From Chloroflexota bacterium (GTDB lineage Bacteria; Chloroflexota; Limnocylindria; P2-11E): 64,000 bases of DNA. Positions 3,775 through 11,473 of this stretch are shown one piece after another (position 1 is the stretch's first letter; each line of letters begins with the position of its first letter). The stretch lies in contig VBFY01000055.1 in assembly GCA_005889405.1 (NCBI GenBank), forward strand, positions 1 to 64,000, in the 5' to 3' direction. The notes beneath the pieces were generated by a model. It ran no database searches and was not told where the DNA came from. It was given only the letters and a program-made list of their open reading frames with translations. Both the position numbers and the translations under genes were made by a program.

Positions 3775-5085
3775 ATGGTGCGATCCACGCGGCCGTTAGC
3801 CGCGATTGCGTTCGCTTTCTCGATCGTGATTACGGCCTGCGCGCAAACGGGGGGGACGCCGACGCCGTCGGGGTCAGCGGCAGGATCAGCAGCATCCGGC
3901 AGCACGATCACCGTCACGTCGCTCTGGGGCGGGAGCGAGCAGACATCGTTCCAAAAGGTGCTCGACGCCTTCAAGGCGAAGACGGGCGTCACTGCTAACT
4001 ACGAATCCGTCCGTGATAACTATTCGACGATCCTTCAAACGCGCATCTCCGGCGGCAATCCGCCGGACGTCGCGATCATGCCGGGCATCGGGTTCCTGCG
4101 CCAGTTCGCGCGGCAGGGATCCCTCAAGAAGATCGCCGACATTGGCATCGACGTGAACGCGCTGAAGGCCAACTACCCACCCGGAATCCTCGAGATCGGT
4201 CAGGTCGACGCGACGCAGTACGCCATCATGGTGAAGTTCAACAGCAAGAGCACCATGTGGTTCCGACCTGACAAGTTCAAGACGCTTGGCGTCACGACCC
4301 CCAGCGACTTCGCCGGCTTCACGAAGCTGCTCGCCGATATCAAGGCCAAGGGCCAGGCACCAATGGGTCTCGGCGCGGCTGACTCGTGGACGTTGACCGA
4401 CTGGTTCGAGAACATCTATGCGAAACAAGCCGGCCCTGAAAAGTACGACCAGCTCTTCAGCGGCAAGCTCCCCTGGACCGACGCGTCCGTCGCCGCGGCG
4501 GTCGACACGATGAAGTCGGCGATCAAGGATGACTTCGTCGCGGGCGGCATCACCGCCGCTCTCGGTCGTAGCTTCACCGACGGCATCGGCCAGGCGTTCA
4601 GTACGAACCCGCAGGCGGTCATCTACTACGAAGGTGGCTTCGTCGGCGGCATCGCGATGGGTCAGACGAACACCGCGCTCAAGGTCGGTGAGACGATCGA
4701 CTGGTTCGACTTCCCCGCCGTTGGCAGCGGCAAGACGGTGACCATCGGCGGCGACGTGATCGCCGCCTTCACCACCAAGCCAGGCGTGAAAGAGTTCATC
4801 AACTACATGACCACAGCAGATTCGGGATCCGTGTGGGCCGGCACGGGCGCGATCATCTCGCCCATCAAGTCCGTCCCCGCGAGCGCGTACCCGAACGACC
4901 TCGCCAAGCGAGAGGCTGCACAGGTCGCAAACGCCAGTGCGGTCCGTTTCGACGGCTCGGACCTGTTGCCCTCCGGTGGCGGAGACAACCTCGGCGCGGC
5001 GCTCCAAAACGCGATCCAGGGCAAGACCGTCGACTGGGCGGCGTTCGAAACAGCGATGGCCGCCAAGTGGAAGGCGGAAAAGTAA
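3775..5085 (+). CDS. Carbohydrate ABC transporter substrate-binding lipoprotein
   Basis: 436 residues. A lipoprotein signal (ITAC, Cys22) is followed by a low-complexity Gly/Ser/Ala linker and an extracellular solute-binding (SBP family 1) fold: 'TITVTSLWGGSEQTSFQKV' at the start of the mature domain, then 'GNPPDVAIMPG'. The perfect AGGAGG at 3763-3768, 6 nt before the ATG, fixes the start. It captures a sugar, plausibly an alpha-glucoside given the AglE-like organisation, for the permeases that follow. A strong hairpin follows the stop. Confidence 0.86.
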   Translation: MVRSTRPLAAIAFAFSIVITACAQTGGTPTPSGSAAGSAASGSTITVTSLWGGSEQTSFQKVLDAFKAKTGVTANYESVRDNYSTILQTRISGGNPPDVAIMPGIGFLRQFARQGSLKKIADIGIDVNALKANYPPGILEIGQVDATQYAIMVKFNSKSTMWFRPDKFKTLGVTTPSDFAGFTKLLADIKAKGQAPMGLGAADSWTLTDWFENIYAKQAGPEKYDQLFSGKLPWTDASVAAAVDTMKSAIKDDFVAGGITAALGRSFTDGIGQAFSTNPQAVIYYEGGFVGGIAMGQTNTALKVGETIDWFDFPAVGSGKTVTIGGDVIAAFTTKPGVKEFINYMTTADSGSVWAGTGAIISPIKSVPASAYPNDLAKREAAQVANASAVRFDGSDLLPSGGGDNLGAALQNAIQGKTVDWAAFETAMAAKWKAEK

Positions 5086-9946: not shown

Positions 9947-10003
9947 GGTTCGAGCCTAGTGGGAATGCCCTGGACGGCTCGGCGCGTTCGGTAGAGTGGG
10001 CAG

Positions 10004-10579
10004 GTGGCAGGCGACGAGTTCGAAGCCGAGGCGCTGCGCCATCTGGATGCGCTCTACCGGACCGCGCTGCGCATGACGCGGTCGGAGGCCGATGCGGAGG
10101 ACCTCGTGCAGGAGACCTACATCAGGGCGTTCCGGTTCCGGGAACAGTTCACGCTCGGCACGAACATGAAGGCTTGGCTCTTCCGCATCCTCACCAATAC
10201 GTTCATCAACACCTACCGCCGCAAGGCGGCACAGCCGGAGGTCACCGACCTCGAAGGCGTCGACGAGTTCTCGCTCTACCGGCGGATGGCCGACGACAGA
10301 GCCGCTTCCTCCTCACCGGATCCCGAGACCGAGCTGCTCAACAGCGTGGTCGATACCGAAGTGACCGACGCGCTCGAGGAGCTGCCGGAGAAGTTCCGCA
10401 CCACCGTGCTCCTCGACGTCGAGGGCTTCTCCTATAAGGAGATCGCGGAGATGCTCAGCATCCCGATCGGCACGGTGATGTCGCGGCTGCACCGGGGTCG
10501 AAAATTCCTCCAGAAGCGGCTGTACGACCTCGCACGCGAGCGCGGCATCGCTGCCGTGCGGACGCCGCAGAAGGGTTAG
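10004..10579 (+). CDS. ECF RNA polymerase sigma factor, SigR/SigH-like
   Basis: 191 residues starting at GTG 10004. Region 2 includes '[20 protein letters not shown]' and '[20 protein letters not shown]'. Region 4 includes '[20 protein letters not shown]' and the recognition helix area '[18 protein letters not shown]'. The next gene encodes a small zinc anti-sigma factor, which together resembles the redox-responsive SigR-RsrA pair of Actinobacteria. The stress sensed is inferred from that resemblance. Confidence 0.87.
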
Positions 10580-10586
10580 GGACGCG

Positions 10587-10826
10587 ATGAACTGCACCGA
10601 CTGCGTGGAGCGGCTATACGCGTTCCTCGACCTCGAGCTCGACGAGAAGGAACTCGCTCAGGTGCGCGCTCACGTCTCCGGCTGTGACGACTGCGGTGAT
10701 CAGTTGGGCCTCGAGCGCCGCTTCCTCGACCGTCTTCGCGACTGTTGCACCTCCGACGTCGCCCCGACACAGCTCCGAGAGCGCGTCATTCAGAAGCTCC
10801 GAGGCACAAGTCCGCCGGCGAGCTGA
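10587..10826 (+). CDS. Zinc-binding anti-sigma factor, RsrA-like
   Basis: 79 residues, 7 nt downstream of the sigma gene. The ZAS motif H-x3-C-x2-C ('HVSGCDDC') and an early 'MNCTDCVERLYAFLD' are present, as in RsrA/ChrR-type anti-sigma factors that release sigma upon thiol oxidation. A CC pair at about residues 53-54 is an extra redox candidate. Soluble, no membrane segment. It very likely inhibits the sigma factor at 10004-10579. Confidence 0.82.
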   Translation: MNCTDCVERLYAFLDLELDEKELAQVRAHVSGCDDCGDQLGLERRFLDRLRDCCTSDVAPTQLRERVIQKLRGTSPPAS

Positions 10827-10839
10827 GACCGCTCACGTG

Positions 10840-10870
10840 TTGACATTTGCGACGTGAATGTGTCTATATA
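10840..10870 (+). promoter_or_regulatory. Strong sigma-70-type promoter for the lysine-rich micro-gene
   Basis: A perfect TTGACA (10840-10845) is followed by TATATA at 10865-10870 (19-nt spacer) or TCTATA at 10863-10868 (17-nt spacer). The start site would be near 10877. It lies just after the anti-sigma stop, so the downstream micro-gene has its own promoter. Confidence 0.65.
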
Positions 10871-10877
10871 ACGAACA

Positions 10878-10907
10878 ATGCGTGGCCAAGAGGAGGTGAT
10901 TCACTAA
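10878..10907 (+). other. Possible 9-codon leader ORF
   Basis: ATG at 10878 opens a reading frame MRGQEEVIH that ends with TAA at 10905-10907. That stop overlaps the micro-gene start (TAATG). The AGGAGG of the micro-gene sits inside this leader. With transcription starting near 10877 it could be leaderless-translated and coupled. Its translation is speculative. Confidence 0.25.
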
Positions 10908-10960
10908 TGCCAGCGAAGAAGAAGGCTGCAAAGAAGTCCAAGAAAGCGAAGAAGAAGTAA
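10907..10960 (+). CDS. 17-residue lysine-rich microprotein
   Basis: ATG at 10907 to TAA at 10958-10960 encodes MPAKKKAAKKSKKAKKK: 11 of 17 residues are lysine, net charge about +11. AGGAGGTGA at 10891-10899, very close to the full anti-Shine-Dalgarno complement, lies 10 nt upstream. It has a consensus promoter before it and hairpins after it, so it looks like a deliberately expressed unit rather than a chance frame. The composition recalls histone H1/HU-type tails and small basic ribosome-associated peptides. No family is assigned, and nucleic-acid binding is inferred from charge only. Confidence 0.6.
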   Translation: MPAKKKAAKKSKKAKKK

Positions 10961-10966
10961 GTTGTG

Positions 10967-10990
10967 AGTGCGACGAGCGATCGTCGCACT
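10967..10990 (+). other. Perfect 10-bp GNRA-loop hairpin after the micro-gene
   Basis: AGTGCGACGA (10967-10976), loop GCGA (10977-10980), TCGTCGCACT (10981-10990). A perfect stem with a GNRA tetraloop begins 6 nt after the micro-gene stop. Only a weak T run follows, so it probably protects the 3' end or acts jointly with the terminator at 11025. Confidence 0.6.
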
Positions 10991-11024
10991 TGTTAAATCC
11001 CGATCTGGCACCTTTCGCGAACCC

Positions 11025-11061
11025 ACCGATCCGCGTAGGCCTCGCGGATCGGTTTCTTTTT
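11025..11061 (+). terminator. Intrinsic terminator of the micro-gene unit
   Basis: A perfect 11-bp stem ACCGATCCGCG (11025-11035) / CGCGGATCGGT (11043-11053), loop TAGGCCT, then a TTCTTTTT tail. This is a textbook Rho-independent terminator. It closes the transcript that starts near 10877 and isolates it from the membrane protein gene downstream. Confidence 0.85.
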
Positions 11062-11155
11062 AGGAACATTCACGTCGTACAGTCGCGTCATCAACTCACC
11101 TCGCCGTGCGCCGCACGTTCGTTGGCCCGCGGTCCTCGCGGGTGTTGCGGTCGCT

Positions 11156-11473
11156 GTGGTGATCAGCGTTCTAGGTGACGCGGTGCTGCCCCCGATCCCG
11201 GCAGCGGTCGCATCCTTTTTAGGACTCTTCTTTTCGGGACTTTTGGCCGGAAAACTGGCGTCCGGTGCACCTATGTACCAGGGCGCGCTGGTCGGCGCAG
11301 GCTACGTGATCTGCGAGGCGCTGGGTGTCGTACCCAGCGGCGCGTACTTCGCCGATCCGCTGTCCGATACCGTCGCGCTCATCGCCTCGGACGCGCTGGT
11401 GATCGTGGTCGCGGCGCTGGGCGGGTTGTTCGCGCGTCTTTGGTCTTCTTCGGATACGGGCACAGGTCATTGA
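11156..11473 (+). CDS. Small polytopic membrane protein
   Basis: 105 residues from GTG 11156 with about three hydrophobic segments ('AAVASFLGLFFSGLLAG', 'GALVGAGYVICEALGV', 'ALIASDALVIVVAALGGLF'). The same frame is open upstream to about 11063 and would complete a first membrane helix (Trp-Pro-Ala-Val-Leu-Ala-Gly...), but no ATG, GTG or TTG occurs there, so the true start is uncertain. Unknown function. Its 3' end overlaps the convergent endonuclease III gene by 95 nt. Confidence 0.5.
   Translation: MVISVLGDAVLPPIPAAVASFLGLFFSGLLAGKLASGAPMYQGALVGAGYVICEALGVVPSGAYFADPLSDTVALIASDALVIVVAALGGLFARLWSSSDTGTGH

Follow-up and report, generated by a model that had tools for sequence, protein, structure and literature searches.

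The window, the 64-kb stretch of Chloroflexota DNA analysed here, carries a very small gene, marked as real by its sequence and conservation, whose 17-residue product is lysine almost throughout; nearly all of its relatives among soil Chloroflexota have two copies. The gene, polyK-1, lies at 10838–11061 (+). It had been described in the initial annotation as a stand-alone transcription unit, and reading of the sequence confirmed to the base every element listed for it; the predicted promoter, Shine-Dalgarno (SD) sequence, reading frame and terminator are all present, and are conserved in relatives. The promoter (TGTTGACATT-N-TGTGTCTATATA, 10838–10870, +) contains a perfect TTGACA, as claimed, at 10840–10845. 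The -10 element had been given as TATATA; this alternative exists (10865–10870, +) but leaves a spacer of 19 nt, while TCTATA (10863–10868) gives 17 nt. The 5' UTR (10882–10901, +) combines GTGGCCA with the extended SD AGGAGGTGATT (10891–10901) and is near-invariant in 27 genomes. The SD had been described as a near-complete complement of the anti-SD; apart from the GGAGGTGATT of polyK-1, the window has no exact match to GGAGGTGATY. A 16S rRNA gene was sought for the anti-SD in the draft genome to which the window belongs, and none was found.

The reading frame (MPAKKKAAKKSKKAKKK, 17 aa, 10907–10960, +) is followed by hairpin T1 (AGTGCGACGA-GCGA-TCGTCGCACT, 10967–10990, +), with a 10-bp stem and, as annotated, a GNRA-type loop (GCGA); its pairing is kept in relatives though the sequence varies. 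Next come a near-invariant element (GGCACCTTTCGCGAACCCACCGA, 11007–11029, +), complementary to the 3' UTR of the rplL mRNA, and terminator T2 (CCGATCCGCG-TAGGCCT-CGCGGATCGG plus TTTCTTTTT, 11026–11061, +), with a 10-bp stem, compensatory stem changes between genera, and a TAGGCCT loop in which GGCC is kept. The intrinsic terminator of the initial annotation is thus present, but the 3' part is not termination machinery only, since it includes the stretch with the highest conservation at this locus, which is shared with the 3' end of rplL. That element, a second genomic copy of the gene, and the action of T1 as a terminator in some relatives are additions to the earlier description. GGCC is kept at two sites, in the 5' UTR (GTGGCCA, 10882–10888) and in the T2 loop (TAGGCCT, 11036–11042), and these two sites of the mRNA could pair with each other or allow dimerisation. 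Neither the window nor the polyK-1 locus has a match in Rfam, at gathering or permissive thresholds.

Upstream lie genes for a SigR-like ECF sigma factor (10004–10579, +; Pfam Sigma70_r2 and Sigma70_r4_2) and an RsrA-like zinc-finger anti-sigma factor (10587–10826, +; Pfam zf-HC2). That polyK-1 follows such a pair had been recognised, and in relatives the sigma gene is likewise upstream of polyK-1, with the anti-sigma homologue directly upstream. The anti-sigma factor contains HxxxCxxC, the arrangement of RsrA-type proteins. A SigR-type, autopromoter-like motif (GGAAT-N19-GTT, 9962–9988, +) stands 5' of the sigma gene, and GGAAT-N18/19-GTT precedes that gene in 24 of the 25 loci with readable upstream DNA, which is consistent with autoregulation. 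With this conserved motif, the two genes (10004–10826) look like a redox pair of RsrA/SigR type from uncultured Chloroflexota. A stress linkage of polyK-1 had been considered possible. The neighbourhood is conserved, yet the sequences do not support direct control by the adjoining sigma factor: the SigR-type site is at the sigma gene, whereas the promoter of polyK-1 is of the unrelated TTGACA/TGTGTCTATAT type. Membership of polyK-1 in a SigR regulon was rejected because its promoter sequence lacks GGAAT-N18/19-GTT. Downstream, at 11084–11473, is a gene for a small protein with no Pfam family; its position is kept in relatives and it has no ATG near its 5' end.

Conservation, coding evidence and a second copy

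Of 101 genomes searched at the DNA level, those with a match are the window's own and all 28 of its family or order; the remaining class genomes of the set have none. For 26 of these 28 relatives the match is the polyK-1 locus itself (27 loci with the window's own); the remaining two (G014, G021) are incomplete assemblies that show only the second copy, polyK-2, or the rplL element. A search with the anti-sigma gene found the same contigs, with the match just upstream of polyK-1. The initial annotation had proposed, as a check, a search for this arrangement in related genomes: a polyK-1 homologue follows the sigma/anti-sigma pair in 26 of 28 relatives, and promoter spacing, SD, lysine frame and terminator are conserved. 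In the alignments the distance from TTGACAT to TGTGTCTA is identical at every matching locus, and the leader GTGGCCAGGAGGAGGTGATC is almost without variation. In family f2 and much of genus g5 a T run follows T1, making it a full terminator and giving the polyK-1 unit two possible 3' ends.

The pattern of change across the 27 loci is that of a reading frame under purifying selection. Start and stop (TAA or TAG in all loci read) are kept, the 13–20 lysine-rich codons differ in number by whole codons only, and at fully conserved residues the variation is confined to third codon positions. For Ala3, the codon is GCG in 15 loci, GCA in nine, GCT in two and GCC in one, and the Pro2 and Ser codons likewise vary synonymously. 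The alternative outcome, in which promoter and hairpins are kept and the frame is lost, was not seen. Both the earlier call of a 17-residue poly-lysine microprotein and the remark that the locus has more machinery than a chance frame are borne out by this conservation. Lysine makes up 249 of the 450 residues in the 27 products; the others include 79 Ala, 51 Ser, 9 His and 8 Thr, and Arg is missing altogether. This lack of Arg is no general trait of the genome, as Arg outnumbers Lys by 225 to 107 in 11 neighbouring ORFs. Searches of Pfam, NCBIfam, PHROGs and PDB, with homologues of 20–25 aa as queries in place of the 17-mer, gave no family or structure match, as expected for low-complexity sequence. 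A polylysine of 17 residues is expected to be disordered.

A search pattern of SD, start codon, two codons and a Lys triplet picks out a pair of genes in most genomes of the family and none in the other 148 genomes of the class; the reversed control pattern has zero matches, and the pattern recovers essentially polyK genes only. The second gene, polyK-2, is unlinked to polyK-1 and was read in 26 genomes, with the frame kept in every one. It has an SD of the GGAGGTGATC type and encodes 12–20 residues (230 Lys and no Arg among 399, or 479 Lys and no Arg among 849 for both genes combined). The 3' region of polyK-1 is missing from polyK-2, which has instead its own 3' hairpin, with an 8-bp stem that varies in a compensatory way and a six-base loop that is GGGCGG in 26 of 26. 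Only the leader and the peptide are common to the two genes, an argument for the peptide as the product under selection. The end of the polyK-2 mRNA (G000:C109:5849–5914, locus L064, and 25 relatives), a hairpin with the GGGCGG hexaloop that lacks a U tract, seems to be an RNA element not described before.

The 3' element and its counterpart at rplL

The element between T1 and T2 of polyK-1 reads GGCACCTTTCGCGA(A/T)CCC(A/G)CCGA, is about 23 nt long, and is conserved above the level of the ORF. Its core has a single other exact copy in the genome (G000:C76:4167–4184), antisense to the 3' UTR of rplL (L7/L12). This copy sits directly 5' of the rplL terminator, at the untranslated 3' end of the rplK-rplA-rplJ-rplL operon. 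Throughout the family there are typically two sites per genome, in the same polyK-1/rplL arrangement, and the other class genomes contain none except one match with one mismatch. The rplL element is conserved in 21 genomes, and it is under selection there too, since the sequence from the rplL stop codon to the element diverges throughout. It further forms the 3' arm of a local hairpin (CGCGA..TCGCG) whose 5' arm changes, and may thus have a local role in addition. This hairpin and AAAGGTGCC stand directly before the terminator (G000:C76, about 4075–4215; L061).

The polyK-1 and rplL mRNAs are complementary over a 14-nt core and a further 8 nt, with a standing mismatch between them, and most genomes retain this mismatch at position 15 or 16. 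In the window's genome the energy of the duplex is about -65 kcal/mol, against a mean of -28 for shuffled sequence. Changes at the two sites tend to go together within a genome: position 2 is A/A in G003 and G028, position 15 is T/T in G005, G008 and G017, and position 19 is A/A in genus g1, in contrast to G/G elsewhere. Two genomes, G013 and G025, depart from this, with A at position 2 in polyK-1 only. For 19 genomes, the mean energy of the cognate duplexes is below that of all 10000 re-pairings, a count that relatedness makes optimistic and that serves as a guide, not a probability.

Such changes are consistent with pairing between the two mRNAs or with a shared ligand. The second possibility, which deserves serious weight even if we doubt it on balance, is that the element is the binding site of one protein (or other RNA) at the ends of both transcription units, with no polyK-1/rplL duplex. 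Recognition by a protein would also yield correlated changes, and it would suit both the palindrome TTCGCGAA found within the element in many genomes and the double use of the rplL copy as a hairpin arm; the site changes, moreover, are not strictly complementary, given the position 15/16 mismatch and the two exceptional genomes. However, the copies are oppositely oriented to their transcripts, which an RNA-binding protein should not tolerate, a DNA-binding protein would have no obvious role just 5' of two terminators, and all re-pairings are less stable than the cognate pairing. The opposite orientation of the sites and their joint changes make pairing of the mRNAs the preferred reading, if only slightly.

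Possible function of the peptide

From these features we infer that polyK-1 is transcribed and translated, and that its product, most likely a polycationic peptide that binds nucleic acid, possibly comes from a dual-function RNA. The reading that we consider rather probable is that polyK-1 (10838–11061) is a real gene for a lysine-rich free polycation acting on nucleic acid, with pairing to the rplL mRNA as a second, less certain layer. Its housekeeping-type promoter would produce a short mRNA with a near-complete complement of the anti-SD, and the extended SD would direct high-rate translation of a disordered, arginine-free, lysine-rich peptide of 13–20 residues. Free in the cell, this polycation would bind electrostatically to nucleoid DNA and/or to RNA, ribosomal RNA included, in a manner akin to the Lys/Ala-rich tails of H1-like bacterial proteins, minus the folded domain. 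The unlinked polyK-2 would supply the same kind of peptide. Less certainly, transcripts that pass T1 may form a 3' UTR duplex of roughly 22–24 bp with the 3' UTR of the rplJ-rplL mRNA, which would couple the levels of the polyK-1 and L7/L12 mRNAs. Binding to the ribosome or to nucleic acid is plausible, and neither the strength of the SD nor the content of lysine indicates which polyanion is bound.

A place for the polyK peptides among small ribosomal proteins or ribosome-associated factors, on the model of bL37 of mycobacteria, a 24-aa protein recognised only with cryo-EM (PMC5876184), is unlikely. Like bL37 they are tiny, very basic and easily missed by gene callers, they are predicted to be highly translated, and one copy is tied to rplL by its sequence. 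In contrast to bL37, however, polyK has no family match in searches with the homologues of 20–25 aa, and occurs as a paralogous pair, with two near-identical genes per genome. Its length varies from 12 to 20 residues within one family and there is no fixed order past the first Lys triplet; Lys is present without Arg, and aromatic residues are absent save for an occasional terminal His, unlike a peptide that fits an rRNA pocket. It is very improbable that polyK-1 is primarily a regulatory RNA with an incidental ORF: no part of the locus is better conserved than the 3' element, but all 27 polyK-1 and all 26 polyK-2 loci read keep the frame, and both polyK-2 and the distant analogues described below keep SD and peptide without the element. 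Least probable of all is a lysine-codon leader peptide for attenuation of the downstream gene, to which the run of Lys codons before two hairpins, the second a terminator, bears some likeness; this reading was rejected since there is no conservation past the terminator, where the DNA up to the next gene is variable in length, and that gene's product is a small protein of no Pfam family, while polyK-2 ends in an unrelated hairpin.

Among known systems, the free polycation is nearest in composition to the H1-like Lys/Ala-rich proteins AlgP and PhaF, with which polyK shares low complexity and lysine with Ala/Ser/Thr spacers (249 Lys, 79 Ala and 51 Ser among the 450 residues of polyK-1). Peptides similar in composition bind DNA in vitro, and electrostatic action on polyphosphate has been proposed for the Lys-rich tail of AlgP (PMC9239181). 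Whereas AlgP and PhaF carry tails of 100+ residues on larger proteins, the entire polyK product is 12–20 residues (17 for polyK-1), with its own promoter, SD and terminator. VcdRP of Vibrio cholerae (PMC8672173) is a dual-function sRNA with a 29-aa protein, VcdP. VcdRP and polyK-1 have in common a short transcript with a small ORF and, as a prediction for polyK-1, a segment able to base-pair in trans; the pairing of polyK-1 differs in being long, near perfect, directed at the 3' UTR of a ribosomal-protein mRNA, and predicted only. In the extended SD sites of Staphylococcus aureus (PMC13009471), as in polyK-1, the complement to the anti-SD is lengthened towards the start codon, although here it characterises a single pair of genes, in which it is fixed. 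Among the papers searched, none was relevant to bacterial lysine-rich microproteins or Lys-rich small proteins of Chloroflexota.

If translated, the polyK peptides would rank with the smallest proteins known to be conserved, their sequence reduced to charge (Lys, never Arg). Nearly every genome of the family encodes them twice and, as previously stated for polyK-1 with its 17 residues, they lie below the usual thresholds of gene calling. They would also offer a minimal system for the role of a free lysine polycation in a bacterium and for the reason why Arg is excluded. The link to rplL, if real, would be an uncommon contact between two 3' UTRs that controls a protein of the ribosomal stalk.

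Lysine-rich microgenes outside the family

Among 400 genomes of the phylum, the SD-Lys pattern found two further genes, both of them stand-alone ORFs (13 and 22 aa) with a strong SD and an intrinsic terminator immediately after. A search around them led to a whole family, f22, with genes of 20–25 aa, such as MMAKKKAAKKPAAKKKAAKKKK, that have the SD GAAGGAGGT and a hairpin with the conserved loop TTCTGTGGA. Many of these adjoin genes with matches to RecA (ImuA-like) and to the IMS Y-family polymerase domain (ImuB-like). Analogues in two distant Chloroflexota families combine SD, Lys-rich peptide and hairpin or terminator without an rplL-like element, which leaves the peptide as the common denominator. 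Sequences so short and of such low complexity are compatible with common ancestry with polyK as well as with separate origin. Given the link to rplL and the link of f22 to mutasome genes, the main partner may be DNA, mRNA or the ribosome. A bolder proposal, which we put forward tentatively and think may well not hold, is that one short transcript has two functions: it would encode a lysine-only polycation and, by pairing of its 3' UTR with the 3' end of the rplJ-rplL mRNA, link a peptide that coats nucleic acid to synthesis of the acidic protein of the ribosomal stalk. On this view, the stand-alone lysine microproteins of Chloroflexota would form a class of counter-ion proteins for nucleic acid that recurs within the phylum and has gone unannotated.

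The same search pattern also finds H1-like proteins of 152–157 aa (KKSSKKATAKRSTAKR...), with an SD upstream, in family f19 (L296–L298). Within the f22 loci (L299–L325), the Lys-rich genes are sometimes arranged as tandem pairs (L309, L314), and many have CUUCUUC right after the stop codon, which could pair with the AAG codons that precede it.
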